Shown here: piece after piece, positions 2,098-20,159 of the stretch
How positions within the stretch are numbered: the first letter of the stretch is position 1
Layout of the letters: the number at the start of each line of letters is the position of its first letter
Source: Janthinobacterium sp.
GTDB lineage: Bacteria > Pseudomonadota > Gammaproteobacteria > Burkholderiales > Burkholderiaceae_D
Length of the DNA: 64,000 bases
Direction: 5' to 3'
Assembly: GCF_009923995.1 (NCBI RefSeq)
Contig: NZ_RFSK01000018.1
Location: 30,337-94,336, forward strand
Position numbers and translations under genes: made by a program
The notes under the pieces: generated by a model
Database searches by the model: none
What the model saw: only the letters and a program-made list of their open reading frames with translations
What the model was told of the DNA's origin: nothing

Positions 2098-2753
2098 CAT
2101 TGCGCGACGATTTTCGACAGCACGGAGAACGCCGCCCCCGTCTGCGATGCTTCCAGCAGCAGCGTCAGCTCCGTGTAGGTGCAGATGATGTTGATCAGGT
2201 TGATGCGGTCCCACGCCAGGCGCCGCAGAATGGCGTGGTACACCCCTGGCGTATAGCAGGTTTCCGGGGCCAGGTGCAAGGTCACCGCCGTCACCCGTTC
2301 CAGGCGCGCCAGTTCCTGTTCGCCGCCGAAGACTTCCTCCACCAGCGCATGCAGGCTGCGGCTGCAGATCACCATCACTTCGTTGACGCCGCGCGTCACG
2401 GTAATGAAGGTGCCCCGCTGCGGCGCGGCCAGCGCCAGCAGCTGGCGCTGGCAGGCATAGGTCTGGTCGGAATAGCGGTAGGTAAAAATCATCAGTTCAC
2501 TGCGCGTGGAAAGCTCTCCCGCCCTGTGCGCCAGCACGATTTCGCCGCTCTTCTGCTGCGGCAGCCGTTCGGCCAGGCGGCGCAGTGCCATCACCACGGC
2601 AGCCTGTCCCACGGGCTTCCACAAATCCGTCTGCAATTGCGGCTGCAGCTGGCGCGCCAGTTCCGACAGGTTGAGCAAGCCGCGTCCCAAGCCTTCGCTG
2701 AGAAAGGCCGACTCCATTACGATCTGTTCCACTTTGGTCGCTATCGAAAGCAT
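2097..2753 (-). CDS. ACT-domain-like regulatory protein (hypothetical)
   Basis: 218 aa. C-terminal pattern VTAVTLHLAPETCYTPGVYHAILRRLAWDRINLINIICTYTELTLLLEASQTGAAFSVL resembles an aspartokinase-type ACT domain. Confidence 0.6.
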   Translation of the reverse strand: MLSIATKVEQIVMESAFLSEGLGRGLLNLSELARQLQPQLQTDLWKPVGQAAVVMALRRLAERLPQQKSGEIVLAHRAGELSTRSELMIFTYRYSDQTYACQRQLLALAAPQRGTFITVTRGVNEVMVICSRSLHALVEEVFGGEQELARLERVTAVTLHLAPETCYTPGVYHAILRRLAWDRINLINIICTYTELTLLLEASQTGAAFSVLSKIVAQ

Positions 2754-2902
2754 AGTTCATCGGGCCGGTGATACCGGTGCACGCACCGGTAGCCGGCAAC
2801 CCTTCCTCAAAAAAAAGACGCACTGAACCCGCGGCCACGCCGGGAGGCGCGGCCGGACATCGTGAAAAAACCCGTTGCAGGGGCAGATCCGGGCGGCGGC
2901 GG

Positions 2903-2983
2903 CTAGGAAGGCGGATGCAGCATCAGTGCCGCTCCAGAGGGGAAATGGCTGAAACCAATGGCAGAAAACAGTACTGACGTCAT
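2903..2983 (-). CDS. Putative 26-aa small ORF upstream of the ACT-like gene
   Basis: MTSVLFSAIGFSHFPSGAALMLHPPS* with GGGAG six nt before the ATG. Confidence 0.3.
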   Translation of the reverse strand: MTSVLFSAIGFSHFPSGAALMLHPPS

Positions 2984-3425
2984 GTGAAACTCCCGATTTT
3001 TTTCCCGATGCGCGACATGGACGCGGTCATTGCCGCGTGCGCTTTTTTTGTCTGTGCGTGCCCCGCTGGGGGCAACGCGCAAAGCTAGTGTAGATCGCAA
3101 CATTTAAAAAATGCAACAGTGTTTTGCCAACAGAACGGGCAACGAGACGGACTAGTCCAAAACAGAACTTACGGTTTGCGGCAGATCAAACGTGCGCTGC
3201 ATAAATGCCAGATAAATGTTCAATTCTTAACAAAAAAAACCATCCTGACCCATTTCTTGAATTTTTTGACATGGCGATATCGACAAGTTTAGTGTCGCCC
3301 TACCCGACGCTATCCCATCACAACAACGGCAGGCTATCCGCCCGCCGCCAGGCGCGCCGGGGTGGCCATCAGACAATCGCGGCCAGCTCATTCACCATTT
3401 TCCTAACCGATACCATGGAGCAGAA

Positions 3426-5957
3426 ATGAATTTACGTTTGACGATAGTTGCCGCATCCATCGCCGCCCTGCCGCTGATGGCCACCACGGCCGATGCCGCC
3501 ACGCCGCTGCCACCCACCCTGATGGCCGCGCCGGTCAGCCTGGCGTCGCCACAAGAGACCGCCAGCCTGGTCAACAAGCTGGCGGCACAGGCGCGCAGCC
3601 GTGGCCTGAACACCGAACATGGCTTCGTGGTCGGCGCCCAGCATCCTGGCGTGAGCGGCACGCGGGTCAGCCGCGTACAGCACACCTACAAGGGCTTGCC
3701 CGTTTTCGGTTCCGAGACGGTGGTCGTCAGCAATAACGCCGGCGACATCGTCAGCGAATCGGTTTCGGACCGCGCCTCCGGCCTCGGCAGCGGTGGCGTC
3801 AACTCCGTCACCCGCAGCGCCACCGCCGACATCGACACCACGCCCGCCATCAGCGCGGCGACAGCCATCGCCGCCGCCGTCAAGAACATCGGCGTGCAGG
3901 CCGTCGATCACGTGCCGCCGCAGGCGCAGCTGCTGATCTACCCCGTCATGAAAACCGTGCGCGTGGCCGGCGCCGAGAACAAATCGGAAGCGTCGCTCAA
4001 CGCCCTGGACGTGCAGGACGTCGTCGACCACTATGAGCTGGCCTACCTGGTGCAGACGCGCATGATCAGCGGCAGCAAGCCGGTGTACTACGATACCGTC
4101 GTCAGCGCCAGGGACGGCAGCATCCTGCGCCAGTGGAAAGCCCTGAAGACCGTCGTCGGCGTCGGCAACAGCCAGTACAACGGCCAGGTGCCGATCAACA
4201 CCACCCTCACCGGCAGCACCTACACCCTGAAGGATGCCTCGCGCGGCACGGGCGGCAGCTTCGGCGCCATGGCCATTACCAATGCCAACCACGGCACCAC
4301 GTCGGGCAGCGTGTACAGCAACACCAGCAATACCTGGGGCGACGGCCAGCAATACATCAGCGGCGGCAGCACCACCAATGCCAACGGCCAGACGGCAGCC
4401 GTGAATGCGATGTGGGGCCTGATGAACACCTACGACACGCACAAGAATGTGCTGGGCTGGTCCAGCCTGGACGGCAACAACACGGCCACACACATCGCCG
4501 CCCACGTCAATACGGCCTATGACAACGCCTACTACGACAGCAGCTGCAAGTGCATGTACATCGGCGATGGCGGCAGCTCCTTCAACAGCCTCGGTTCGAT
4601 CGACGTGATCGGGCATGAAATGGGCCATGGCATCACGGACGCCACCTCGGGCCTGGTCTATTCGCAGGAGTCGGGCGGCTTGAACGAATCGAACTCCGAT
4701 ATCGCCGGCGAGATGGTGGAAGCGTATGCGCGCGCCGGCGGCACGGGCACCAGCATCCCCAACACGGGCAACGATTGGATGATGGGCAAGGAGATCGCCA
4801 AGAATGGCCAGCCGCTGCGCTGGATGTACAAGCCAAGCAAGGATGGCAGCAGCCCGAACGCGTGGAGCAGCACGCTGAAAAACCTCGACGTCCATTACAG
4901 CAGCGGTCCGAACAACCGCATGTTCTACTTCCTGTCGCAAGGTTCGAACTCCACGTCCAGCAGCGACTACTACAGCTCCTACCTGAACAAGAGCCCGCTG
5001 GCCATGACCGGTATCGGCAGCGACAAGGCTTACCGCATCTGGTTCAAGGCAGCCACCACCAAGTTCACGTCGTCGACCAACTACGCAGACGCGCGCAACA
5101 AGGTGCTGGCGGCAGCCGAGGAACTGTATGGCGTGGGCAGCGCCGAGGCGACCGCCGTCAAGCGCGCGTATGCAGCCATCAACGTGGGTACCGACGTCGA
5201 TGAAACGACCACGGGCGGCGCAGTGAGCATCACCAGCCAGCCGGCCAGCATCACCGTCGCACCAGGCGCCACCGCCTCGTTCGCCGTGGGCGCGGGCGGC
5301 GGCACGGCGCCATACACCTACACGTGGTACCGCAATGGCGCCGTGATCAGCGGCGCCACATCGCCAAGCTACAGCTTCACGACCGTGGCGGCCGACAACG
5401 GCGCCGTCTTCAAGGCCACGGTAACGGATTCCTCGTCGCCAGCCGTGACGGCAACGTCGAACAACGCCACCCTGACGGTCGGCACGAGCAGCGCCACCGA
5501 ACGCGTGACGAACGGCGGCTTCGAGTCGGGTGCCACGGGCTGGAGCGGCACCACGGGCGCCATCGGCACCTTCACCGGCCAAGTGGCGTATGAAGGCACG
5601 AAATACGCCTGGCTGGGCGGCAATGGCACGACGGCCAGCGAATCGCTGACGCAAAGCGTGGCCATTCCGGCCGCCGCCACGTCCGCCAGCCTGACGTTTG
5701 CGCTGCATATCGACACGGCCGAAACGGGCACCACCGCCTACGACAAGCTGGTCGTCACCGTGAAGAACAGCGCCGGCACCGTGCTGGGCACCCTGGCCAC
5801 GTATTCGAACGTGAACAAGGCGGCCGGCTACCAGATCCGCACGTTTGACCTGATCGCCTACAAGGGCCAGACCGTGCAGATCTCGTTTGCCGCCACCGAG
5901 GACGCTTCGCTGCAAACCTCGTTCGTGCTCGACAAGGTCAGCCTGATCACCCAGTAA
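3426..5957 (+). CDS. Secreted M4 family (thermolysin-like) metallopeptidase with Ig-like and C-terminal accessory domains
   Basis: 843 aa; signal peptide MNLRLTIVAASIAALPLMATTADA; zinc motif HEMGH plus GGLNES(N)SD; FTP-type propeptide; C-terminal ITSQPASITVAPGATASF Ig-like and NGGFESGATGW-like domain. Confidence 0.93.
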   Translation: MNLRLTIVAASIAALPLMATTADAATPLPPTLMAAPVSLASPQETASLVNKLAAQARSRGLNTEHGFVVGAQHPGVSGTRVSRVQHTYKGLPVFGSETVVVSNNAGDIVSESVSDRASGLGSGGVNSVTRSATADIDTTPAISAATAIAAAVKNIGVQAVDHVPPQAQLLIYPVMKTVRVAGAENKSEASLNALDVQDVVDHYELAYLVQTRMISGSKPVYYDTVVSARDGSILRQWKALKTVVGVGNSQYNGQVPINTTLTGSTYTLKDASRGTGGSFGAMAITNANHGTTSGSVYSNTSNTWGDGQQYISGGSTTNANGQTAAVNAMWGLMNTYDTHKNVLGWSSLDGNNTATHIAAHVNTAYDNAYYDSSCKCMYIGDGGSSFNSLGSIDVIGHEMGHGITDATSGLVYSQESGGLNESNSDIAGEMVEAYARAGGTGTSIPNTGNDWMMGKEIAKNGQPLRWMYKPSKDGSSPNAWSSTLKNLDVHYSSGPNNRMFYFLSQGSNSTSSSDYYSSYLNKSPLAMTGIGSDKAYRIWFKAATTKFTSSTNYADARNKVLAAAEELYGVGSAEATAVKRAYAAINVGTDVDETTTGGAVSITSQPASITVAPGATASFAVGAGGGTAPYTYTWYRNGAVISGATSPSYSFTTVAADNGAVFKATVTDSSSPAVTATSNNATLTVGTSSATERVTNGGFESGATGWSGTTGAIGTFTGQVAYEGTKYAWLGGNGTTASESLTQSVAIPAAATSASLTFALHIDTAETGTTAYDKLVVTVKNSAGTVLGTLATYSNVNKAAGYQIRTFDLIAYKGQTVQISFAATEDASLQTSFVLDKVSLITQ

Positions 5958-6203: not shown

Positions 6204-7397
6204 ATGCAGTTCCACCTCCAGGTACAGGGCCCGGCGGGCAGCCAGGCGCTGGCCATCGATGCCGCCAGCGAGGCCGAGGCGATCCGCGCGGCCGTGCGTG
6301 GCGGCTGGCGCGTGCTGGCCGTCGACGACGGCGCCGCGCAGGACATGGGCACCGTGGTCCGCCCGGCCAAGCAGGGCCTGCCCCTGCTGCAATTCAGCCA
6401 GGAGCTGCTGGCCCTGCTCGAAGCAGGCCTGAACCTGGGCGAGGCCATGGCCACCCTGCACAACAAGGAAACGCGCCCGGCCGCCAAAGCGACGCTGGCC
6501 GCCATCGTGCTCACCCTGCAGCAAGGCCAGAGCTTTTCCGACACCCTGGCCGATTTTCCCGACATCTTCCCCGACATTTACATCGCCACCGTGCACGCGG
6601 CCGAACGCTCAGGCAACCTGCCCGAGGCGCTGGCCCGCTTCGTCGGCTACCAGCTGCAGTTCGACGCCATCCGCAAAAAACTCATTTCCGCCGCCATCTA
6701 CCCGTGCATGCTGCTCGTCGTCGGTGGCCTGGTGACCCTGTTCCTGCTCGGCTACGTGGTGCCGAAGTTCAGCGTCGTGTATGAAAGCTCGGGCCGCGAG
6801 ATTCCCTGGATGTCGCAGATGCTGCTGGGTTTTGGCCAGACCCTGGCCGCCCATCCGCTGCTGTGCGCCAGCGCCCTGGCCGGCGCGGTGGCCGCCGTGC
6901 TGTTTGGCGTGGCCAATGCCGGCGCGCGCCAGGCGCTGGTACTGCACCTGCTGCGCCTGCCCGTGCTGGCGGAAAAGGCGGCGGAATTCCGCCTGGCGCG
7001 CTTCTACCGGGCCCTCAGCCTGCTGCTGCATGCGGGCATCCCGCTGCACAAGGCGCTGGCCATGGTCGCGCCCATGCTGCTGCCGGCGCAGCAGGAGCAG
7101 CTGGCGCAGGCGCGCCGCGCGGTGCAGGAAGGCATGCCGTTTTCCACCGCGCTGGAACAGGCCTGCATGGCCACGCCCGTGGCGCAATCGCTGCTGAAAG
7201 TAGGCGAGAACACGGGCCGCCTGGGCGACATGCTGGAACGTTCGGCCAAGTTCCACGACGAGGAATTCGCGCGCTGGGTGGACTGGGCCTCGCGCCTGCT
7301 CGAGCCGCTCTTGATGACCATCATCGGCGTCGTCATCGGCGGCGTGGTGGTGCTGATGTACATGCCGATCTTTGAACTGGCGGGGAGCTTATCGTGA
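6204..7397 (+). CDS. GspF/PilC/MshG-type inner-membrane platform protein
   Basis: 397 aa with duplicated T2SSF architecture (FSQELLALLEAGLNLGEA...; FYRALSLLLHAGIPLHKAL...). Confidence 0.92.
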   Translation: MQFHLQVQGPAGSQALAIDAASEAEAIRAAVRGGWRVLAVDDGAAQDMGTVVRPAKQGLPLLQFSQELLALLEAGLNLGEAMATLHNKETRPAAKATLAAIVLTLQQGQSFSDTLADFPDIFPDIYIATVHAAERSGNLPEALARFVGYQLQFDAIRKKLISAAIYPCMLLVVGGLVTLFLLGYVVPKFSVVYESSGREIPWMSQMLLGFGQTLAAHPLLCASALAGAVAAVLFGVANAGARQALVLHLLRLPVLAEKAAEFRLARFYRALSLLLHAGIPLHKALAMVAPMLLPAQQEQLAQARRAVQEGMPFSTALEQACMATPVAQSLLKVGENTGRLGDMLERSAKFHDEEFARWVDWASRLLEPLLMTIIGVVIGGVVVLMYMPIFELAGSLS

Positions 7398-7407
7398 CGG
7401 CTTTACC

Positions 7408-9105
7408 ATGAACGCGCGCGACGAAGAACGGGCCGTGCTCGATGCGGCCATGCTGCGCCAGGCCCACGCCAGCGCACTGGCGCAAGGCCGCCCGCAAATG
7501 GCCGTGCTGCAGGAAACGGCGGCCCTGCCGCCCGACGTCTTCGTGCGCCAGCTGGCCGCCCTGTTTCGCTACCCGGCGTGGACGATGGCCGATCTGCAGG
7601 CGGCCTTGCCCGCCTTTGTCCTGCTGCCCTACACCGACTGCGCCCAGCGCGACTGCGTGCTGCTGCAGCCGGACGCTCCCGGCGCGCCGCCCGTGCTCGT
7701 CATCGGCAATCCCTTTGCCGACGACCTGCTGCAATGGGCCGACTTCGCCCTGCGCACGCCCTTTACGGTGGGGCTGGCGCACCCGGACGATTTGACTGCC
7801 TACCTGCAGCAGCAGGAAAGCGTGCAGCAGGCGATGCAGGAAATGCAGCACGGTGATGATATGCCTGGACTGGACCAGAGCATCGAGGACATCTCGCTGA
7901 TCCGCATCAGCGAAGACAGCAGCCCTGTCGTGAAACTGGTGAACTCGACCATCTACGACGCGCTGAAATTCCAGGCCAGCGACATCCACCTCGAATGCGA
8001 CGTGGCCAGCCTGGTCATCAAGTACCGCGTCGACGGCGTGCTGGTGCAGGCGGGCCAGGTGCAGGGCTTACAAATGGCCGAACAGATCATCTCGCGCATC
8101 AAGGTCATGGCGGACCTCGACATCGCCGAGCGGCGCATTCCCCAGGATGGCCGCTTCAAGGTGCGCGTCAAAGGAGCGGAGATCGATTTCCGCGTCTCCA
8201 TCATGCCGAATATCTTTGGCGAGGACGCCGTGCTGCGCCTGCTGGACCGGCGCGCGCTGACGGAAGCGGCGCAGGCGCTGCGCCTGGAAAGCCTGGGCCT
8301 GAACGGGGACGCCATCGAACAGATCCGCCGCCTGGCCGCCAAGCCGCACGGCATGCTGCTGGTGACGGGTCCCACCGGTTCCGGCAAGACCACCACGCTG
8401 TACGCGGCCATCACGGAAATCAATACGGGGCGCGACAAGATCGTCACCATCGAGGACCCCGTCGAATACCGCTTGCCGCGCGTGCTGCAAATCCCCGTCA
8501 ACGAAAAAAAGGGGCTGACGTTTGCACGCGGCCTGCGCTCCATCCTGCGCCACGATCCCGACAAGATCATGATCGGCGAAATCCGCGACGACGAGACGGC
8601 GCAGATCGCCGTGCAGGCGGCGCTCACGGGCCACCTGGTGTTTACCACCGTGCATGCGAATAACGTCTTCGACGTGGTGGGCCGCTTTCTGCACATGGGC
8701 GTGGACGCCTACAGCTTTGCGGCGGCCCTGAACGGTATCGTGGCGCAGCGCCTGCTGCGTCTCAACTGCGCCCATTGCGCCGTCGACGCCAGCGCCGAGG
8801 TGCTGGCCGATACCCAGCAGCTGCGCGACAGCGGCCTGGCGGCGCACCAGGTGCAGGACTGGCAGTTCATGGCCGGCAAGGGCTGCGGCCATTGCCGCGG
8901 CACCGGCTACAAGGGCCGCAAAGCCGTCGCCGAAGTACTGATGCTCAGCGACGCCATGCGCGAAATGATCTGCACGCGCGCACCGCTGAGCCAGATGAAG
9001 GAGGAAGCGGCACGCAACGGCTTTCGCCTGGCGCGCGAAGCGGGCCTGGACCTGGTGCGGCGCGGCGAAACCACTCTAGCGGAGCTCAATCGTGTCACTT
9101 ATTGA
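7408..9105 (+). CDS. GspE/PilB/MshE-type secretion/pilus assembly ATPase
   Basis: Walker A GPTGSGKTTTLYAAI; IGEIRDDETAQIAVQAALTGH; C-terminal CxxC...CxxC zinc motif. ATG at 7408 preferred over 7372. Confidence 0.93.
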   Translation: MNARDEERAVLDAAMLRQAHASALAQGRPQMAVLQETAALPPDVFVRQLAALFRYPAWTMADLQAALPAFVLLPYTDCAQRDCVLLQPDAPGAPPVLVIGNPFADDLLQWADFALRTPFTVGLAHPDDLTAYLQQQESVQQAMQEMQHGDDMPGLDQSIEDISLIRISEDSSPVVKLVNSTIYDALKFQASDIHLECDVASLVIKYRVDGVLVQAGQVQGLQMAEQIISRIKVMADLDIAERRIPQDGRFKVRVKGAEIDFRVSIMPNIFGEDAVLRLLDRRALTEAAQALRLESLGLNGDAIEQIRRLAAKPHGMLLVTGPTGSGKTTTLYAAITEINTGRDKIVTIEDPVEYRLPRVLQIPVNEKKGLTFARGLRSILRHDPDKIMIGEIRDDETAQIAVQAALTGHLVFTTVHANNVFDVVGRFLHMGVDAYSFAAALNGIVAQRLLRLNCAHCAVDASAEVLADTQQLRDSGLAAHQVQDWQFMAGKGCGHCRGTGYKGRKAVAEVLMLSDAMREMICTRAPLSQMKEEAARNGFRLAREAGLDLVRRGETTLAELNRVTY

Positions 9106-9868
9106 CCATACCCTGTGCCTGCACCTGGCGCCGCAGGCGCTCTACGGCGTGCAGCGCCGCGCCGGCCGTCCCGTCGCGGACAGCGCTTTTCACGTGCCCA
9201 TCCTGAATCCCGGCGCCAGCTGGGAAGGGGCGCTGGCCGGCTTGCGCGACTGGCTCGAACAGCACCATGAAAAAAAGCTGCCGCTGGCCGTCAGCCTGGC
9301 CAGCCGCTGGTGCGCCATGCTGATGGTGCCGTGGAGCGGCGCCCTGCTCGATGCCGACAGCGCGCAGCGTTTTCTGCACAGCCAGTTCGGCGCCGTGTAT
9401 GGCGACGGCGCCCGCGCCTGGCGCCTGGCCGCCGACGGCGCGCCGTATGGCCAGCCGCGCCTGGCCTGCGGCATCGATGCGGCCCTGCTGCAGGGGATAC
9501 AGGAGGCGGCCGGCGCGCATGGCCGGCGCTGCCTGTCCATCGAGCCCATCGTGGGACCGGCGTGGCGCAGCATCGCCGGCGGCAAGCCGGCCGCCTTCGC
9601 CCTGGTAGAGGAGGGCCGCCTGCTGCTGGCGACGACCGGCGGCGGGCGCATCACGGCCCTGCACAGCCAGTCCTGCGACACGGCCTGGGGCGATGAACTG
9701 GAGCGGGCCTGGCGACGCTGGAACCTGCGCGCACCGCAGCTCGATGCCATCGAACAGGTGGCGCTGCTGGACTTGAGCGGCGTGCCGCAAGTGGCACTGT
9801 CGGCGCGCTTCCAGTCCATGCCAGCGGCCAGTCCGGCACACCTGATGCGGGAGACCGCATGGGCCTGA
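9092..9868 (+). CDS. GspL/PilM/MshI-like assembly protein (hypothetical)
   Basis: 258 aa; position between the E ATPase and the PilN-like gene; overlaps the upstream stop. Confidence 0.6.
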   Translation: MSLIDHTLCLHLAPQALYGVQRRAGRPVADSAFHVPILNPGASWEGALAGLRDWLEQHHEKKLPLAVSLASRWCAMLMVPWSGALLDADSAQRFLHSQFGAVYGDGARAWRLAADGAPYGQPRLACGIDAALLQGIQEAAGAHGRRCLSIEPIVGPAWRSIAGGKPAAFALVEEGRLLLATTGGGRITALHSQSCDTAWGDELERAWRRWNLRAPQLDAIEQVALLDLSGVPQVALSARFQSMPAASPAHLMRETAWA

Positions 9869-10413
9869 GCCGCATCGAATTCATGCCCGCCAGCGCGGAG
9901 CAGGCTTTTTCCGGCTGGCGCCTGGTCCTGTGCCTGACCGGAGCCCTGTTCCTGCTGCCGGCCTCCCTGTTCTGGCTCGTACAGGCGCAGGAGGTGCGGC
10001 GCCTGGAAGCACAACTGGCGCAGCTGCAGCCCGCCAAGCCCGTGCGCGCGCCGCTGTCCGCCAGCCAGCAGCGCGAGCGCGACATCGAACTGAAACAGGT
10101 GGCCCTCGCCGTGCGGCAGCTCAACCTGCCCGTCACACGCCTGATCAAGACGGTGCAGGCGCCACGCGACGTGCGCGTCGCCCTCCTGGGGCTGGACCTG
10201 AATGCGCAGCAGGGCCAGGATGGCGCCAGCGCCCTGAAAATTGCTGCCGAAGCGGAAACGCCGCAGGACATGCTCAACTACCTGGCCTTCCTGAACCAGC
10301 AGCCCATGTTCAGCTCCGTGTACCTGCTCAAGCACGAGATGAGCGGCAGCGCGGACGCCAGCGCCCCTCAACATCCCTACCGTTTTCAGCTGGAGGCACA
10401 ATGGCGGCAATAA
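9859..10413 (+). CDS. PilN/GspL-C-like inner-membrane assembly protein
   Basis: 184 aa with a single N-terminal TM (LVLCLTGALFLLPASLFWLV) and a coiled segment; operon context. Confidence 0.65.
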   Translation: MGLSRIEFMPASAEQAFSGWRLVLCLTGALFLLPASLFWLVQAQEVRRLEAQLAQLQPAKPVRAPLSASQQRERDIELKQVALAVRQLNLPVTRLIKTVQAPRDVRVALLGLDLNAQQGQDGASALKIAAEAETPQDMLNYLAFLNQQPMFSSVYLLKHEMSGSADASAPQHPYRFQLEAQWRQ

Positions 10414-11021
10414 AACCCGTGCTGACGGTCCGCACGCAGCCTGCACGCCCGCGCCTGCAACTGCGCCTGCCGCCGCGCCTGCAGTGGGAAGCGCAGCACC
10501 TGTGGCGTACCCTGGGCTGGCCCTGCGCCATCGGCGCGGCCTGCCTGGCGCTGGCCGCCGTCGCCGTACAGCAGGGCAAGGCGCTGGCGGCGCGCCAGCA
10601 GCATCTGGCGACGCAACTGGCGGTGGCGGCAAGACAGTCGGCGCTGCCGCCGACACCCGCCACGCTCGATACGGAAGCCGACAGCCTGGCCGCCTTCCAC
10701 GCCTACCTGCCCGCACATGACAGCATTCCCGAGCAACTGAAAACCTTGCTGGAAGTGGCGCAAAAGAATGGCGTCACCCTGGCCAAGGCCGACTACAAGC
10801 CGCAGGAGGACGGCAACACGGCCTTCTTGCGCTATCAGGTCACCCTTCCCGTGAAGGCCGAATACGCGCAGCTGCAAGCCTTTATCGTCGACGCCCTGCA
10901 GGAACTGCCCACGCTGACGCTCGACTCCGTGCTGTTCAAGCGCGAGCAGATCGAGGCAGGCGAGATCGACGCACGCATCCAGTTCGTCCTGCTGGTGAAA
11001 AAGCCGGAGGTGCGTTCATGA
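10401..11021 (+). CDS. PilO/GspM-like inner-membrane assembly protein
   Basis: 206 aa from the ATG at 10401 (MAAIKPVLTVRTQPARP...); TM plus a YAQLQAFIVDALQELPTLTLDSVLFKRE fold typical of PilO/GspM. Confidence 0.65.
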   Translation: MAAIKPVLTVRTQPARPRLQLRLPPRLQWEAQHLWRTLGWPCAIGAACLALAAVAVQQGKALAARQQHLATQLAVAARQSALPPTPATLDTEADSLAAFHAYLPAHDSIPEQLKTLLEVAQKNGVTLAKADYKPQEDGNTAFLRYQVTLPVKAEYAQLQAFIVDALQELPTLTLDSVLFKREQIEAGEIDARIQFVLLVKKPEVRS

Positions 11022-11557
11022 AAAAAGCCGTACTGGGGGCGGCCGCCGTGGCGACCCTGCTGGCCGCGATCTTCGCGCCCGAGGACGAAGGCAGCATCGT
11101 CGGGCCGGCCACGGCCACGCCGCGCCAGGTGGAGCGCGTGCCGGCACCAGCCATCGTCACGGCGGCCAGTACCGCGCCCGCCCGTTCCGCGCTGGCCATC
11201 GAGCCGCGCCGGGCACTCGACGATGACGAAGCTGCCACCTTGTTCGCCAAGCAAAGCTGGCAGCCGGAGACGCCGAAAAAAATCATGCTCGACCAGCAGG
11301 CGGCCCAGGCCACGCGCACCGTCGCCGCCATCGACCCGAATGCGCCGCCTCCGATGCCATTCCAGTTCCTTGGCCGCTTCGTCGACGAAGGCAAGGCCGC
11401 CTACTTCCTGCAAGCAGGCGAACGCAACGTGGTGGCGCGGCCCGGCGACACCCTGGAAGAACGCTACCGCTTCGACGGCGTGGTGCAGGGTTCCCTGCAA
11501 TTTACCTATCTGCCGCTCAACCTGAAACAGACACTCGCCGTAGGGGACCTCAATTGA
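11018..11557 (+). CDS. PilP/GspC-like protein of the secretion operon
   Basis: 179 aa; N-terminal hydrophobic segment; C-terminal PPPMPFQFLGRFVDEGKAAYFLQAGERNVVARPGDTLEERYRFDGV resembles an HR/PilP-type domain. Confidence 0.6.
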   Translation: MKKAVLGAAAVATLLAAIFAPEDEGSIVGPATATPRQVERVPAPAIVTAASTAPARSALAIEPRRALDDDEAATLFAKQSWQPETPKKIMLDQQAAQATRTVAAIDPNAPPPMPFQFLGRFVDEGKAAYFLQAGERNVVARPGDTLEERYRFDGVVQGSLQFTYLPLNLKQTLAVGDLN

Positions 11558-13455
11558 AACGACGCGCACCACGTACGATCTTCACCCTGCTGCCCATGCT
11601 GTCCCTGCTGGCTGGCTGCGCCGGCAACCAGGCCTACAACGATGGCCAGGCTATGCTGGGCGCGGGCCACACGCAGCAAGGGCTGGCCCTGCTGGAACAG
11701 GCGGCACAAGCCGAACCGACGAATGCGAAGTACCGCATCGCCGTCACGAACGGCAGGATGCGCGCCCTGAACAAGCTGAATGGCGCTGCGGAAGCGCTGC
11801 GCCAGCAAGGTAATTTACCCGAAGCGCAAGCGCTGTACCGCCAGGCGCTGGCCCTGGACGCCAGCGACGACGTGGCGCAGCGGGGCCTGGCCAGCGTGGC
11901 GCAGGACGAGCGCCACCGCAAGCTGGTGCAGGAAGCACAGGCCAGCTATCAGCGCGGCGGCGACGCGAATGTAGCGCAGGCGCAGGAAGCCTTGCGCCAG
12001 GTGCTGCAGGAGCGTCCCGCTCAGCGCGACGCGCTGGCCCTGAAAAGCCGCATCGGCGACGAACAGGCCAAAGCCCGCCCGGCCGGCGGCAAGCTGGCCG
12101 CCGCCTACCGCAAACCCGTGACCCTCGAATTTCGCGACGCGCCCCTGCGCTCCGTGTTCGATTTTCTCGGCAAGGTCTCCGGCCTGAACTTCGTCTTCGA
12201 CAAGGAAGTCGATCCCGCCCTGCGCGCCACGATCTCCGTGCGCGACACCAGCATCGAGGAAGCCATCGCCATGCTGCTGGGCGCGAACCAGCTGGAACAG
12301 AGCGTCACCAGCGACAAGTCCATCACGATTTACCCGAACACGCCGCAAAAGGTGAAGGATTACCAGCAGCTGGTGGTGCGCACCTTCTTCCTCGCCAATG
12401 CGGACGTCAAGACGGTGGCGTTTTCCATCAAGACCCTGCTCAAGGCCAAGGATGTCGTCACCGACGAACGCCTGGGCATCATCATGCTGCGCGATACGCC
12501 GGAAATGGTGCGCATGGCCGAGCGCATCATCAACGTACAGGACCTGGCCGACCCGGAAGTGATGCTGGAGGTGGAAGTACTGGAAGTCAAGCGCACGCGC
12601 CTGATGGAGCTGGGCATCCGCTGGCCGGACCAGGCCAGCCTGACCCTGGCGGGCAGCGGCACGGGCCTGGGCGGCCTGAAAGTGGCCGACCTGCGCCGCA
12701 TCAACGGCGAGAATATCAACCTGGGCATCGGCGGCGTCACCCTGAACGCCAACAAGACCGACAGCGACAGCAACATCCTCGCCAACCCGCGCATCCGCGT
12801 GCGCAACAAGGAAAAGGCCAAGATTCTCATCGGCGACCGCGTGCCCGTGATTACCGTCACGACGAACAACGGCGTCAGTTCCGACAGCGTCAATTACATC
12901 GACGTGGGCCTGAAGCTCGACGTCGAGCCGAACGTGTATCTTGATGACGAAGTGGCCATCAAGATCAACCTGGAAGTATCGAACGTCGTCAAGGAAGTCA
13001 TCAGCAAGACGGGCACGCAAGCGTACCAGATCGGTACGCGCAGCGCCTCCACGGTGCTGCGGCTGAAGGATGGCGAGACGCAGGTGCTGGCGGGCCTGAT
13101 CAGCGACGAAGACCGGGGCACGGCCAACAAGGTGCCCGGCGTGGGCGAACTGCCCGTGCTGAACCGCCTGTTCGGCAGCCAGAAGGATGACGCCATGCGC
13201 AGCGAGATCGTGCTGTCGATCACACCGCGCCTGCTGCGCAGCATCCGCCGCCCGGACCTGATGACGGCCGAATTCAATTCCGGCACCGAGGCCTCCGTAG
13301 GCGGACGCGCCAGCGTGGGCGGCAGCCCGGATTCCGTCGCCGCACCCGAACAGGCCGCGCCGCGCGCCGGTTCGCCCATGACGGGCGGCGACGAGGCGCC
13401 TGCCGGCGACAAGTCTGCCGCTACGCCCGCCGCCACCGTCAAGGGCGGCCAGTGA
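11554..13455 (+). CDS. GspD/MshL-type secretin with lipobox and N-terminal TPR-like region
   Basis: 633 aa; LSLLAGC lipobox; TPR-like repeats; secretin signature VPGVGELPVLNRLFGSQ...EIVLSITPRLL. Confidence 0.92.
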   Translation: MKRRAPRTIFTLLPMLSLLAGCAGNQAYNDGQAMLGAGHTQQGLALLEQAAQAEPTNAKYRIAVTNGRMRALNKLNGAAEALRQQGNLPEAQALYRQALALDASDDVAQRGLASVAQDERHRKLVQEAQASYQRGGDANVAQAQEALRQVLQERPAQRDALALKSRIGDEQAKARPAGGKLAAAYRKPVTLEFRDAPLRSVFDFLGKVSGLNFVFDKEVDPALRATISVRDTSIEEAIAMLLGANQLEQSVTSDKSITIYPNTPQKVKDYQQLVVRTFFLANADVKTVAFSIKTLLKAKDVVTDERLGIIMLRDTPEMVRMAERIINVQDLADPEVMLEVEVLEVKRTRLMELGIRWPDQASLTLAGSGTGLGGLKVADLRRINGENINLGIGGVTLNANKTDSDSNILANPRIRVRNKEKAKILIGDRVPVITVTTNNGVSSDSVNYIDVGLKLDVEPNVYLDDEVAIKINLEVSNVVKEVISKTGTQAYQIGTRSASTVLRLKDGETQVLAGLISDEDRGTANKVPGVGELPVLNRLFGSQKDDAMRSEIVLSITPRLLRSIRRPDLMTAEFNSGTEASVGGRASVGGSPDSVAAPEQAAPRAGSPMTGGDEAPAGDKSAATPAATVKGGQ

Positions 13456-13934
13456 GCTGGCCCATGAAGCCGCGCGGCTTTACCTTCATCGAGCTGATGA
13501 TCACCCTGGCGATCATGGCGACCTTGGCCACGGTCGCCGTGCCGATGGCGCAGGTGGCGCAGCAAAGGGCGAAGGAACACGAATTGCGCAGTGCCCTGAT
13601 CGAGATCCGCGAGGCCATCGATGCCTACAAACGCGCTTCCGACAATGGCCGCATCAAGCTGTCGCTGGGCGCTTCCGGCTATCCGAAGAAGCTCGATGAA
13701 CTGGTCGAGGGTGTGCCCGACCAGCGCAGCCCCTCGAAGCAGAACATGTATTTTCTGCGCCGCCTGCCGCGCGATCCGTTCCAGCCACGGGAAGAAGGCA
13801 GCGCAGCCGACAGCTGGAACAAGCGCGCCTATGCCTCGCCGCCCGACAATCCCAGCGAAGGCGAAGACGTGTTCGACGTCGCCTCGCGCTCGACCAAGGC
13901 GGGCCTGAACGGCGTGCCGCTCAATCAATGGTGA
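13452..13934 (+). CDS. GspG-like pseudopilin 1
   Basis: Prepilin motif PRGFTFIELMITLAIMATLATVAVP. Start could be GTG 13452 or ATG 13464. Confidence 0.88.
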   Translation: MSWPMKPRGFTFIELMITLAIMATLATVAVPMAQVAQQRAKEHELRSALIEIREAIDAYKRASDNGRIKLSLGASGYPKKLDELVEGVPDQRSPSKQNMYFLRRLPRDPFQPREEGSAADSWNKRAYASPPDNPSEGEDVFDVASRSTKAGLNGVPLNQW

Positions 13935-14323
13935 CCGACATGTCCTACCCGTACTTGCGGCGTGGCTTTACCCTGGTCGAACTGCTGGTGGTGCTGGCCA
14001 TCATTTCGCTGCTGCTGACGATCGCCATTCCCCGCTATTTCGGTTCGGTGGAAAAGTCGAAGGAGGTCGCCCTGAAGGAAAACCTGCAGGTGCTCAGGAG
14101 CGGCCTGGATAAATACTATGCCGACAAGGGCGAGTATCCGGCCGCGCTGGCCGACCTGGTCACCCACCATTATTTCCGCAGCGTGCCCATGGACCCCGTC
14201 ACGGAGTCGTCCGCCACGTGGCAGCTGGTGCCGTCGCCGAATGGCGAAATCGGCGGCGTGGCCGACGTGCGCAGCGGCGCCAAGGGCAAGACGCGCGAGG
14301 GCATCCCGTTTGAACAGCTCTAG
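13928..14323 (+). CDS. GspG-like pseudopilin 2
   Basis: Prepilin motif RRGFTLVELLVVLAIISLLLTIAIPRYF. Start could be 13928 or 13940. Confidence 0.9.
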   Translation: MVTDMSYPYLRRGFTLVELLVVLAIISLLLTIAIPRYFGSVEKSKEVALKENLQVLRSGLDKYYADKGEYPAALADLVTHHYFRSVPMDPVTESSATWQLVPSPNGEIGGVADVRSGAKGKTREGIPFEQL

Positions 14324-14846
14324 TTTTCGACGCCGTGCGCGGGGATTTGCATACGTCTGGACCCTGCTGCTGGTGGCCTTCATGGGCGTGGGCCTGGTCG
14401 TGGCCAGCGAACTGCTAGCCACGGCCGCGCGGCGCGACAGGGAGCGCGAGCTGCTGTTCATCGGCCATGAATTCCGCAATGCGCTGGGGCGCTACTATGA
14501 CAGCACGCCAGCCGACGGCCGCCCGCGCTACCCGCTGACCCTGCAGGAACTGCTGAAAGATCCGCGCTTCGCCAACGCCCGGCGCCATCTGCGCCGCGTG
14601 TATGCGGACCCCGTCACGGGCAAGGCGGAATGGGGACTGCTGCGCCAGGAAGGACGCATCGTCGGCATCCATTCCCTGTCGCCGCAGCTGCCCATCAAGC
14701 AGGACAACTTCCTTGATGAAGACGCCAGCCTGCGCCGCAAACAGCGCTACGCGGACTGGCAGTTCACCTATCCGCACGACCTGGTGCTGGCCCCGCCCGA
14801 TGCCGCTGGCGGGGTGCCCGGCCTCAAGCCGAAAGGCGCAAACTGA
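14310..14846 (+). CDS. Minor pseudopilin-like protein without Glu+5
   Basis: Likely TTG start at 14310 overlapping the previous gene; N-terminus LNSSSFRRRARGFAYVWTLLLVAFMGVGLVVASELL. Confidence 0.7.
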   Translation: MNSSSFRRRARGFAYVWTLLLVAFMGVGLVVASELLATAARRDRERELLFIGHEFRNALGRYYDSTPADGRPRYPLTLQELLKDPRFANARRHLRRVYADPVTGKAEWGLLRQEGRIVGIHSLSPQLPIKQDNFLDEDASLRRKQRYADWQFTYPHDLVLAPPDAAGGVPGLKPKGAN

Positions 14847-14902
14847 TATCATGCGGCTTTCCGCAACACGCATCGGCATCACGCATCGAACAAGGAGCAG
14901 GC

Positions 14903-16126
14903 ATGAGCATAGGTGGCACTTCCATCGAACAGGCATTGGCATCGCTGTCGGACATGACGTCCGGCATGGTCGCCATCGGCAAGGACGAACACGCGCAGCG
15001 CATCGCCAAGGCGCAGGCATTCATGCGCCAGCAGGGCATCGCCGCGATCTATCTGAACGCGGGATCCAACCTCACCTATTTCACGGGCACCAAATGGTAT
15101 GCCAGCGAACGCATGGTGGGCGCCATCCTGCCGGCCAGCGGAGATATCGAATATATCGCGCCCGCCTTCGAGGAAAGCACCCTCACGGGTTTCATGCTTA
15201 TCGAAGGCAAGGTCAATTGCTGGGAGGAGCATGAAAGCCCGTATCAGCTGTTCGTCGACGTGCTGGCGCGCATGGGAATCGCCCAGGATGCCGCCGCGCC
15301 GCCGCGCGTGGGCATCTGCGAAAGCGCCGCCTTCTTCATCTACGACGGCATCCGGCCGCTGGCGCCAGGCTATATGCTGGAAAACGCCCGCGCCGTCACG
15401 GCGTACTGCCGCAGCCGCAAGTCCGCGGCGGAAATCGCCCTGATGCAGCGCGTGATGGACATGACCCTGGCCGTGCACGTGGCTACGGCCAGCATGCTAT
15501 ATGAAGGCATCACGACGGTGGAAGTGGAAGAATTCATCCAGCGCGCGCACCGCAAGGTGGGCGCGCCGCGCTCGTATTTCTGCATCGTGCTGTTCGGCGA
15601 AGCGACGGCCTATCCGCACGGCGTCAACTACGTGCAGACCCTGAAGGCGGGTGATACGGTGCTGATCGACACGGGCTGCCAGGTAATGAACTACATTTCC
15701 GACATCACGCGCACCTATGTGTTTGGCGACATCAGCGAGCGCCAGCGCTCCGTGTGGAACAGCGAAAAGGCGGCGCAGGCCGCGGCGTTTGCCGCCGCCC
15801 GGCTGGGCGTGCCCTGCGGCGACGTGGACCGCGCCGCCCGCGTCTCTTTGGCGTCGGACGGCTTCGGCCCCGGCTACAAGCTGCCCGGCCTGCCGCACCG
15901 TACGGGCCACGGCATCGGCCTCGATATCCACGAATGGCCTTACCTGGTCGGCAATGACACCACGCCGCTGGACGTGGGCATGTGCTTCTCGAACGAGCCG
16001 ATGATCTGCATCCCCGGCGAATTCGGCATCCGCCACGAAGACCATTTCTACATGACGGAAAACGGCCCGCGCTGGTTCACCGAACCGGCGCACAGCATCG
16101 ACGACCCGTTCGGCTTGCAGGCTTAA
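14903..16126 (+). CDS. M24 family metallopeptidase (Xaa-Pro aminopeptidase/creatinase fold)
   Basis: 407 aa; IDTGCQVMNYISDITRTYVFGD...GLPHRTGHGIGLDIHEWPYL...FSNEPMICIPGEFGIRHEDHF. Confidence 0.93.
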   Translation: MSIGGTSIEQALASLSDMTSGMVAIGKDEHAQRIAKAQAFMRQQGIAAIYLNAGSNLTYFTGTKWYASERMVGAILPASGDIEYIAPAFEESTLTGFMLIEGKVNCWEEHESPYQLFVDVLARMGIAQDAAAPPRVGICESAAFFIYDGIRPLAPGYMLENARAVTAYCRSRKSAAEIALMQRVMDMTLAVHVATASMLYEGITTVEVEEFIQRAHRKVGAPRSYFCIVLFGEATAYPHGVNYVQTLKAGDTVLIDTGCQVMNYISDITRTYVFGDISERQRSVWNSEKAAQAAAFAAARLGVPCGDVDRAARVSLASDGFGPGYKLPGLPHRTGHGIGLDIHEWPYLVGNDTTPLDVGMCFSNEPMICIPGEFGIRHEDHFYMTENGPRWFTEPAHSIDDPFGLQA

Positions 16127-16307
16127 GCGGCCTGCGCCAACGCCAGCCGCCGCACCGCCGGCGCGCTGGTGATCGCTGGCGCACCGGCCGGCGCCAGCTT
16201 GAACACGGCCAGCGCCGTGCCCAGCTGCACGGCCTGTTCCTGCAGCGATTCGGCCGCCGCGACGCTTCTGCCACCAGGGCCGAATTCTGCTGCGTCATCT
16301 GGTCCAT
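16127..16307 (-). pseudogene. C-terminal remnant of a methyl-accepting chemotaxis protein, frameshifted
   Basis: Two minus frames join as MDQMTQQNSALVAEA / SVAAAESLQEQAVQLGTALAVFKLA..., matching the MCP C-terminus (compare [17 protein letters not shown]...[17 protein letters not shown] of the intact MCP at 53.8 kb). Frame change near 16263-16266; the upstream MCP body is absent. Confidence 0.8.
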
Positions 16308-16550: not shown

Positions 16551-18026
16551 TCAAGCGCACGCTGGCGGTGCCGGCAAGGGACCGAACAGCGCCTCCAGCG
16601 ACAGACCGATGGCCAGCAAGCGACTGTCGCTGCCCAGCGGTCCGTCGATCTCCATCCCCACCGGCAAGCCCTCTGCCGTGATGCCAGCCGGCAAGGACAA
16701 GCCGGGTATGCCCGCGTTGCTGGCCGGGTCCGTATTGCGGATCAGGGTGGTGAACGCATCGCCCGCGGCGCCGCCGTCCACCGCGATGGTGGACGAGCCA
16801 TGTACGCCATCGATGGCTACGGCGCACACGGGCGTGGTGGGGAAAAAGATCGCGTCCAGGCGGTGCCGCGCAAAATAGTCGCGGTACAAGGCCTGCAAGC
16901 GGGGCCGCTGCACCAGCAGGGCGTCGGGGTACGCCGCGCCAAACGCATCGCCCAGGATGGCGCCAAACGCATGCTGCACGTCGGGGCTGGCCACCTGCGC
17001 GGCGATGTCGTCCAGCGTGAGTGGCGCGCCGCCCGCGGCCAGGTAGGCGGGAATCGCCTGGCGCGGCTCGTGCAGCGCCAGCGGGAACGACACCTTGCCG
17101 TTCGCCTCCATCACGTCCTGCATGCCGAGTTCGACCAGCACCACGCCCGCCTGCGACAGGGTTTCCCTGGCTTGCGCCATGACGGCCGCCACGTCGGCGT
17201 CCAGCGGCTGCCAGAAAGCGGCCGGCACGCCAAAGCGCAGGCCGGCCAGCGGCTCCGGCGAGGGCACGCTCCGGCCGGACAGCACGCTGTCGAGCAGGGC
17301 CACGTCGGCCACCGTGCGCGCCATGGGGCCCAGCGTATCGCGCGTGTGGCTGATCGGCACCGTGCCGCTGGAATCGTAGCACCGCTCGGCGCCGCCGTCG
17401 CCCACGGACGGGCGCAGGCCGACGATGCCGCACAGGGCGGCCGGCACGCGCGTGGAGCCGCCCGTATCCGTGCCCAGGCCTGCCGGCGCGATGCGCGCGG
17501 CGATCGCCGCCGCCGTGCCGCCGGAAGAACCGCCCGGAATGCGCGCGCTGTCATACGGATTTTTGACATGTCCGGCAAAACTGGAAAAATTCGTGCTGGT
17601 GGCGCCAAACGCCAGCTCGTGCAGGTTCGCCTTGCCCAGCACGATGGCGCCCGCGTCCAGCAAGCGCTGCACGCCGGGCGCATTCGCCGACGGATACCAG
17701 TCGCGCAGGGCCGGCGTGCCGGCGGTCGTCGGCATGCCATGCGTGTCGATATTGTCTTTGACAACGATGGGCAAGCCCGCCAGCGGCGGCAAAGGCTGGC
17801 CCGCCGCGCGCGCCGCATCGACACGCATGGCGGCGGCCAGCGCGGCATCCGCATTGACCGTGATCAGGCTGTTCAAGCCCGCTTGCGCGCGCGCCTGCGC
17901 CAGCAAGGTACGCATGTAGTCGGCCGCACCCAGGCTGCCGTTGGCGATGGCGGCCACGGCATCGCTGGCGCTCAGGGCCAGCTGCGCCTGCGCGGCGATG
18001 GAAGCTTGATCGTCTGCCTTGTTCAT
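16551..18026 (-). CDS. Amidase signature family protein (indoleacetamide-hydrolase-like)
   Basis: 491 aa; amidase signature GGSSGGTAAAIAARIAPAGLGTDTGGSTRVPAALCGIVGLRPS; VKDNIDTHGMPTTAGTPAL. Confidence 0.9.
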   Translation of the reverse strand: MNKADDQASIAAQAQLALSASDAVAAIANGSLGAADYMRTLLAQARAQAGLNSLITVNADAALAAAMRVDAARAAGQPLPPLAGLPIVVKDNIDTHGMPTTAGTPALRDWYPSANAPGVQRLLDAGAIVLGKANLHELAFGATSTNFSSFAGHVKNPYDSARIPGGSSGGTAAAIAARIAPAGLGTDTGGSTRVPAALCGIVGLRPSVGDGGAERCYDSSGTVPISHTRDTLGPMARTVADVALLDSVLSGRSVPSPEPLAGLRFGVPAAFWQPLDADVAAVMAQARETLSQAGVVLVELGMQDVMEANGKVSFPLALHEPRQAIPAYLAAGGAPLTLDDIAAQVASPDVQHAFGAILGDAFGAAYPDALLVQRPRLQALYRDYFARHRLDAIFFPTTPVCAVAIDGVHGSSTIAVDGGAAGDAFTTLIRNTDPASNAGIPGLSLPAGITAEGLPVGMEIDGPLGSDSRLLAIGLSLEALFGPLPAPPACA

Positions 18027-18107: not shown

Positions 18108-20159
18108 TTACTCGCGCTTGGAAACGAGGGTCAGGATGTCATAGCTGGCCACCAGCTCCTCGTTCTGGTTCGTCACCTGCACATCCCACGCGACCACGCC
18201 CTGGCCCACGCCAAACACGTCCTTGCGGTTGCGGTCCACCTTGCGCTTGCACGTCAGGCGCGCGCGGATGGTGTCGCCGATGGCGACGGGCGCGACGAAG
18301 CGCAGGTTATCCAGGCCATAGTTGGCCAGCACGGGGCCGACGCCGGGCGAAACGAACAGGCCGGCGGCGGCCGACAGCACGAAGTAGCCGTGGGCGATGC
18401 GCTTGCCGAACTGCGATTCCTTGGCGGCGATTTCGTCGAAGTGCATGTAAAAGAAGTCGCCCGAGATGCCGCCGAAGGCGACGATGTCCGCTTCGCTGAC
18501 GGTGCGGCGGTGCGTCAGCAGCGAGTCGCCCGTCTTCAAGTCCTCGAAATGCTTGCGGAACGGGTGGATCGGGCTTTCATTGACGTCCGCGCCGCGCACG
18601 TATTCGCCCGTGATGGCCGCCAGCATGGTGGGCGAGCCTTGCACGGCCGCCCGTTGCAGGTAGTGGCGCACGGCGCGCACGCCGCCCAGCTCTTCGCCGC
18701 CGCCCGCGCGGCCAGGGCCGCCGTGCTTCAGCTGCGGCAGGGGCGAGCCATGGCCCGTCGAATCGACGGACGCCACGCGTTCGAGCACGTGCACGCGGCC
18801 ATGCGTGGCCGCCACTTGCGGCACCACGCGCGCGGCGATCTTCGGATCGCGCGTCACCAGGGTGCTCACCAGGCTGCCCTTGCCGCGCGCGGCCAGGGCC
18901 AGCGCCTCGTCGATATCGTTATAGCCCATCATGGTGCTGACGGGGCCGAAGGCTTCCACGTCATGCACGGCATCGTTGCCAAACGCGTCGCGGCACAGCA
19001 GCAGGGTCGGCGAGAAGAAGCTGCCGTCACTGGCGCCATCGCCCAGCGGGTTGAAGCCATCGGCCGCACCGAACACCACCTCGTTGCCCTGCGACAGGGT
19101 GGCGACGCGCTCGGCCACGTCATTCTGCTGCTCCTTCGAGGCCAGCGCGCCCATGCGCACGCCCTCGATGGACGGATCGCCCACCACCACCTTGGCCAGG
19201 CGTTCGCGCAGGCGCGTGCCGACAGCGTCCATCAGGTGCTCGGGCACGATAATGCGGCGGATGGCCGTGCACTTCTGGCCCGACTTGCCCGTCATCTCGC
19301 GCACGACTTCCTTGACGAAGAGGTCGAACTCCACGTCGTCCGGCGTGACGTCCGGCGCCAGGATGGCGCAGTTGAGCGAATCGGCTTCGCCGTTGAACGG
19401 CACGGAATTGGCGATCAGGTTCGGATTCGTGCGCAGCTTGGCGGCCGTGGCGGCCGATCCCGTAAACGTCACGAAATCCTGGCCATTCAGGCGGTCCAGC
19501 AAGTCGCCCGTGGAGCCGATCACCAGCTGCAGACTGCCCGCCGGCAGCAAGCCCGATTCGTGCATCATGCGCACGACGGCCTGCGTCAGATAGCTCGTCG
19601 CCGTGGCCGGCTTGGCGATGCAGGGCATGGCCGCCAGGAAGCTCGGGGCGAATTTTTCCAGCAAGCCCCAGATGGGGAAGTTGAAAGCGTTGATGTGCAC
19701 GGCCAGGCCGCCGCGCGGCACCAGGATGTGCGTGCCGGCGAAGCCGCCCTTCTTGCCCAGCGCGATGGCCGGGCCTTCGTGCAGCACGTTCGACGACGGC
19801 AGCTCGTTGCTGCCCATGCTGGCGTAGGCGAACAGGGTGCCCGTGCCGCCTTCGATATCGACCCAGCTATCGGCCCGCGTGGCGCCCGACAGGTGCGAGA
19901 TCGCATACAGTTCTTCCTTGCGCTCGACCAGGTACAGGGCCAGCGCCTTCAGGCGCGCGGCGCGCTGCTGGAAGTCGAGCGCCATCAGGCCAGGCACGCC
20001 CGTCTTGCGCGCATACGTGACGGCTTCGTCGAAGTCGATCTTTTCCGCATGCGTGTGATAGATGACGCGGTTGTTCAAGGCGCTGTGCAGGGGCACGGCG
20101 GCGCTGTCGCCCAGCCAGCGGCCGGCGATCAGGCTTTGCAGGGTAGATATTTCAGCCAT
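18108..20159 (-). CDS. paaZ: Phenylacetic acid degradation bifunctional protein (oxepin-CoA hydrolase/aldehyde dehydrogenase)
   Basis: 683 aa; aldehyde dehydrogenase domain ([14 protein letters not shown]...; [11 protein letters not shown]) fused to a MaoC-like domain ([36 protein letters not shown]). Confidence 0.95.

Follow-up and report, generated by a model that had tools for sequence, protein, structure and literature searches.

The Xcm system of Pseudomonas putida, an atypical type II secretion system (T2SS), is reportedly needed to export a manganese-oxidizing factor. The gene arrangement attributed to it, which is said to come from de Vrind et al. 2003, is xcmT2-xcmT3-xcmX-csmEFG. Another atypical T2SS, the Oxp/Pul system of Geobacter, was reportedly described by Mehta et al. 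2006. A passage in PMC4509608 on the Xcm cluster in P. putida GB-1 and KT2440 cites de Vrind et al. 2003 (its ref. 109), and a passage in PMC3056050 states that the cluster came from Mn-oxidation mutants. The second T2SS of Geobacter has the pseudopilins PulG, OxpG and TklG and the ATPase PulE (GSU1783); its cargo is the multicopper protein OmpB (PMC3543383, PMC8557921). GSU1783 is listed together with PP3483 and RSp0148 among the nearest BLAST hits of a Nitrosomonas T2SS E ATPase, ahead of a drop in E-value (PMC1569441, Table 2).

Here we analyze a ten-gene operon in a stretch of 64,000 nucleotides of Janthinobacterium sp. DNA (the window). The original prediction, made from the letters of this stretch, took the operon for a system of unrecognized kind. 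Its kind is known: the locus is an Xcm-type atypical T2SS, a family already described as Xcm in 2003 and probably as Oxp/Pul in 2006. The Geobacter system, from another phylum, probably belongs to the same family, a likeness drawn from the literature descriptions. What is new is the protease cassette, the prediction of its cargo, a copy lacking GspG, and the breadth of the family.

Gene content and parts of the operon

The ten genes follow one another on the + strand as F-E-M-N-O-P-secretin-pilin-pilin-x, every frame open and intact (Table 1). The original prediction had given this strand and order. It had also described the overlaps, which measure 4-14 bp at every successive pair from E onward; F and E are separated by a gap of 10 bp. 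E most probably starts at ATG 7408, since a homolog (locus L227) begins at the matching ATG; the TTG at 7372 is a mechanical ORF start. A sigma-70 promoter scan found no promoter. GspH/I/J/K, GspO and PilT, whose absence had been pointed out, are indeed not recognizable in the locus. Could the operon be a chance neighborhood? We reject this because it is conserved across many families.

The window also contains argH (argininosuccinate lyase) at 648-2045 and, on the minus strand at 2097-2732, an ORF that several genera also have beside M4. A minus-strand gene at 16551-18026 encodes an indoleacetamide hydrolase (NF005688, above cut-off), possibly auxin-related; adjoining it, also on the minus strand, is an ORF of 683 aa at 18108-20159.

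Table 1. Genes of the Xcm-type operon and the upstream protease gene, with positions in the window
Gene	Identification	Position	Strand	Basis
M4	M4 (thermolysin-like) metalloprotease	3426..5957	+	Pfam Peptidase_M4/M4_C; HExxH at 397
F	GspF/PilC-type inner-membrane platform	6204..7397	+	T2SSF Pfam 1.6e-52; under GspF equivalog cut-off
E	GspE/PulE-type ATPase	7408..9105	+	T2SSE Pfam; Walker A, two CxxC; distinct clade
M	PilM / GspL-cytoplasmic-domain homolog	9092..9868	+	AlphaFold and Foldseek
N	PilN-like, one TM	9859..10413	+	PilN Pfam in orthologs
O	PilO/GspM-like, one TM	10401..11021	+	PilO Pfam above cut-off
P	putative PilP/GspC-HR-like protein	11018..11557	+	Alignment, weak PilP profile match, position
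D	Lipoprotein secretin, N-terminal TPR repeats	11554..13455	+	Secretin, STN, TPR Pfam; lipobox LAGC
g1	Pseudopilin 1 (XcmT2-like), GFTFIE	13452..13934	+	N_methyl; GspG model below cut-off
g2	Pseudopilin 2 (XcmT3-like), GFTLVE	13928..14323	+	N_methyl, weak T2SSG
x	putative third pseudopilin (XcmX-like), GFAYVW, without Glu5	14310..14846	+	TTG start; alignment, structure model

No sequence model recognized M, and a PDB sequence search with it came back empty. Its AlphaFold model (pLDDT 91.7) folds like PilM and the cytoplasmic part of GspL: the best Foldseek match is the cytoplasmic domain of EpsL/GspL (1yf5, E 4.6e-12), with PilM next. Comparing M, N and P profiles by Hhalign with two-sequence GspL and GspC alignments yielded nothing, these templates holding too few sequences. 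The PilN family of Pfam (PF05137) matches 27 of 31 orthologs of N at E up to 0.1, the best at 4.7e-7, and O matches PilO in the PDB (3jc8, E 1.7e-5). The pairing of GspL-like with GspM-like inner-membrane proteins that marks a canonical T2SS is thus present, in the modeled cytoplasmic-GspL fold of M and in the PilO/T2SSM_b matches of O orthologs.

The assignments of P and x are tentative, being based on weak similarity. In alignment, P starts with a short TM segment, continues with a Pro-rich linker and ends in a conserved domain; PilP is its only sensible profile match, at a weak E of 0.66. The third pseudopilin, x, is conserved across 28 aligned sequences and appears by HMM and alignment to be of XcmX type. 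Its structure model contains a long N-terminal helix, and the best fold match, a weak one, is PulG.

Pseudopilins 1 and 2 carry class III signals. The operon holds no bona fide GspG, because both of these G-like pilins fall under the cut-off of the GspG model (37.4 and 52.3 against 88.85 bits). None of the GspH/I/J/K models scores above cut-off in the locus, and no separate pilotin gene for the lipoprotein secretin was seen.

Natural fusions of M and N into a single protein of 425-504 aa, the architecture of GspL, occur in several lineages (loci L108, L110, L114, L115, L174, L175, L179, L181, L184, L199 and L221). Since such fusions arise inside one family, the division between GspL and PilMN is evolutionarily fluid.

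Relation to known secretion and pilus systems

We built an ML tree of 78 rows, covering E alone and leaving out four wrong-frame ORF rows. A branch with SH-aLRT 100 sets all 49 Xcm-type E rows, those of Pseudomonadaceae and Aliiroseovarius included, apart from canonical GspE (12 rows, among them those of this genome and E. coli), PilB and MSHA-type E. The original prediction had proposed a distinct minimal system of the T2SS/T4P superfamily, and had named the placement of all core genes in canonical T2SS or MSHA clades, or the remaining gsp/msh genes turning up just beside the operon, as results that would speak against it. E, for its part, lies outside the canonical GspE, PilB and MSHA clades and so stands apart from canonical T2SS, T4aP and MSHA. 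It shares a group with the E of csgEFG-linked Pseudomonadaceae loci. A T4bP, Tad or Com identity was rejected because the ATPase scores far lower there.

The Pseudomonadaceae operon matches the published Xcm cluster because mnxG lies upstream and csgEFG downstream. Following x in locus L320, CsgE-CsgF-CsgG are confirmed by Pfam at 2480-4145, and most fetched loci of the family have three genes of csgE, csgF and csgG size at this place. MnxG, a manganese-oxidizing multicopper oxidase, is encoded upstream at 1-1977 in L328, the one locus checked (1254 bits over the C-terminal part). Other upstream genes in these two loci encode SCO1/SenC, SurA-like and periplasmic-binding proteins. The window operon shares with Xcm, as represented by these Pseudomonadaceae loci, the order E-M-N-O-P-D-T2-T3-X, the E group and the XcmX-type pseudopilin; gspG and F may lie apart, and genes of the GspC/L/M and GspH-K types are lacking. 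The surroundings differ. Pseudomonadaceae loci have csgEFG downstream and, where checked, mnxG and Cu-chaperone genes upstream, whereas the window has the M4 protease gene, with F inside the operon.

How widespread is the family? With the TPR-secretin as probe, positives made up 8 of 274 sampled genomes at the level of the class, 95 of 250 in the order and 108 of 246 in the family. Most of the 59 fetched and 80 named loci keep the order [GspG]-F-E-M-N-O-P-D-g1-g2-x with hardly any variation. This order spans Gallionella, Sideroxydans, Thiobacillus, Nitrosovibrio, Massilia, Rhodoferax, Variovorax and Chitinolyticbacter, and it occurs on plasmids too. What had been called an atypical gene order is therefore the usual one in a family with many members. 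Families of the Betaproteobacteria have this order; the Pseudomonadaceae have E-M-N-O-P-D-g1-g2-x. An operon of TPR-secretin type is present in 33 of 249 genomes that we take to be Pseudomonadaceae, the set having been assigned through a Pseudomonas 16S signature.

A third arrangement, O-P-D-g1-g2-x-F-E-M, is seen in L092, L095, L097, L098, L118 and L296, mostly from Janthinobacterium; these loci adjoin giant RHS-repeat, FG-GAP and SpvB/TcdB-midN-like proteins. An alphaproteobacterial plasmid copy from Aliiroseovarius has the same gene set, headed by an A24 prepilin-peptidase gene of its own (L298, 7886-8362).

Canonical T2SS loci (gsp of E. coli K-12, L292, and the one in this genome, L009) also have F, E, a secretin and GspL/M/C-like modules. 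In the window operon, however, GspG/H/I/J/K are missing, M and N are split and E falls outside the GspE clade. What is shared with T4aP and MSHA is the PilMNOP-like set. Its T4aP-style split, along with the better match of O to PilO than to GspM in most orthologs, would suit a type IV pilus-like surface filament that serves adhesion or DNA uptake in place of secretion. We consider this very improbable and reject it. The locus has no PilB-clade ATPase, no PilT retraction ATPase, no PilY1, no PilA and no MshM/N; by the tree, E is neither PilB-like nor near the MSHA-type E of its own genome. Moreover, the pilins are GspG-like, exoproteins are linked, and the Xcm cluster that it matches serves secretion.

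A second operon copy and a linked M4 protease

Homology, size and gene order identify several related loci elsewhere in the 6.18-Mb genome: a canonical T2SS (L009), an MSHA-type locus (L010), PilB- and PilT/U-like genes, the latter on another contig, and three Tad-type loci. A search for a second T2SS and for pilD had been suggested; besides the canonical T2SS, the genome has four A24 prepilin-peptidase genes (family matches), all outside the locus, in keeping with the expectation that the peptidase is encoded elsewhere.

A syntenic second Xcm-type operon lies on contig C82 (L011, C82:1-19000) at 6736-16161. F, E, D and the two G-like pilins are 42-57% identical between the copies; N, O, P and x are less so, and M of the C82 copy was not detectable by BLAST. 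A true GspG precedes this operon, and an S8 protease and PEP-CTERM-like proteins adjoin it. The genome thus has GspG though the window operon does not: in the C82 copy and, judged by position, in the canonical T2SS.

Is the window operon, then, a decaying paralog that no longer functions? That the C82 copy has a GspG equivalog and the window operon has none would fit such a history, which we nevertheless reject as even less probable than a surface filament. The window operon has intact frames and overlapping genes, and operons like it, also without GspG, are kept throughout the genus and beyond it in further genera. Most of the fetched Pseudomonadaceae loci likewise have neither GspG nor F beside E.

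Directly upstream of the operon is the only M4 gene in the genome. Its 843 aa product has a signal-like N-terminus, an HEMGH site and a C-terminal Ig-like domain. The original prediction began its unit at position 6204 and left this gene outside; we include it because it is present with the operon, absent with it, and found together with it on a plasmid. An M4 gene lies beside or near an operon of the same type in 12 of 12 further genomes from three genera (in G726, two genes intervene), and in most of them the linked gene is the only full M4. M4 is absent from 18 of 20 genomes of the family that lack the secretin (two have any M4), and from both same-genus genomes without the operon (2/2). 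On a J. lividum plasmid, homology to the window spans the M4 gene through x only, with gspG added at the 3' end. Protease and machine form a unit, carried as a cassette. The pair need not have strictly co-evolved, given that DNA identity to the plasmid is 75% for the protease and 89% for the operon, and within one genus common descent could partly explain the linkage. In L106, a locus from another genus, M4 genes flank the operon on both sides.

By analogy with Xcm, the M4 protease is very probably the cargo of the machine encoded next to it. Taking the neighbor for the cargo is reasonable because MnxG lies near Xcm, and Xcm is reportedly required for export of the manganese-oxidizing factor. 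Canonical T2SSs, of which this genome has one (L009), export M4 proteases too. Together with the very different exoproteins that adjoin other Xcm-type loci, this would allow the machine another cargo or several, such as a surface protein, while the canonical T2SS exports M4. We think that unlikely, since protease and operon co-occur, go missing together and share a plasmid.

Proposed mechanism and significance

Taken together, these comparisons of sequence make it likely that the locus encodes a dedicated Xcm-type T2SS that mainly exports the upstream M4 protease, with GspG and prepilin peptidase supplied from other loci. The M4 proenzyme would cross the inner membrane via Sec and then fold in the periplasm. 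E would hydrolyze ATP and, with F, assemble a short pseudopilus from the pseudopilins. Jointly, M and N may do the work of GspL, while O may correspond to GspM and P to the HR domain of GspC, joining the secretin. This TPR-bearing lipoprotein would form the channel through the outer membrane. GspH-K would be replaced by pseudopilins 1, 2 and x, the last perhaps at the tip; GspG would come from the paralogous C82 operon or the canonical T2SS.

Other Xcm-type copies adjoin S8 and astacin proteases, an LTD-exo/endonuclease, Ig/FN3 giants and RHS-type proteins, and many have no evident exoprotein adjoining. With slightly more doubt than confidence, we suggest that Xcm-type operons may be a large, under-recognized clade of one-cargo T2SSs, each beside its exoprotein: MnxG, M4, S8, astacin protease, LTD-nuclease, Ig/FN3 giants or RHS-repeat proteins. 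The window would then hold a protease-exporting cassette that has shed its own GspG and uses GspG in common with other systems.

The neighboring gene lets the cargo of an atypical T2SS be predicted. If these machines are dedicated, mining the many Xcm-type loci would yield a list of the enzymes they export, with proteases and Mn/Fe-cycling oxidases among them.
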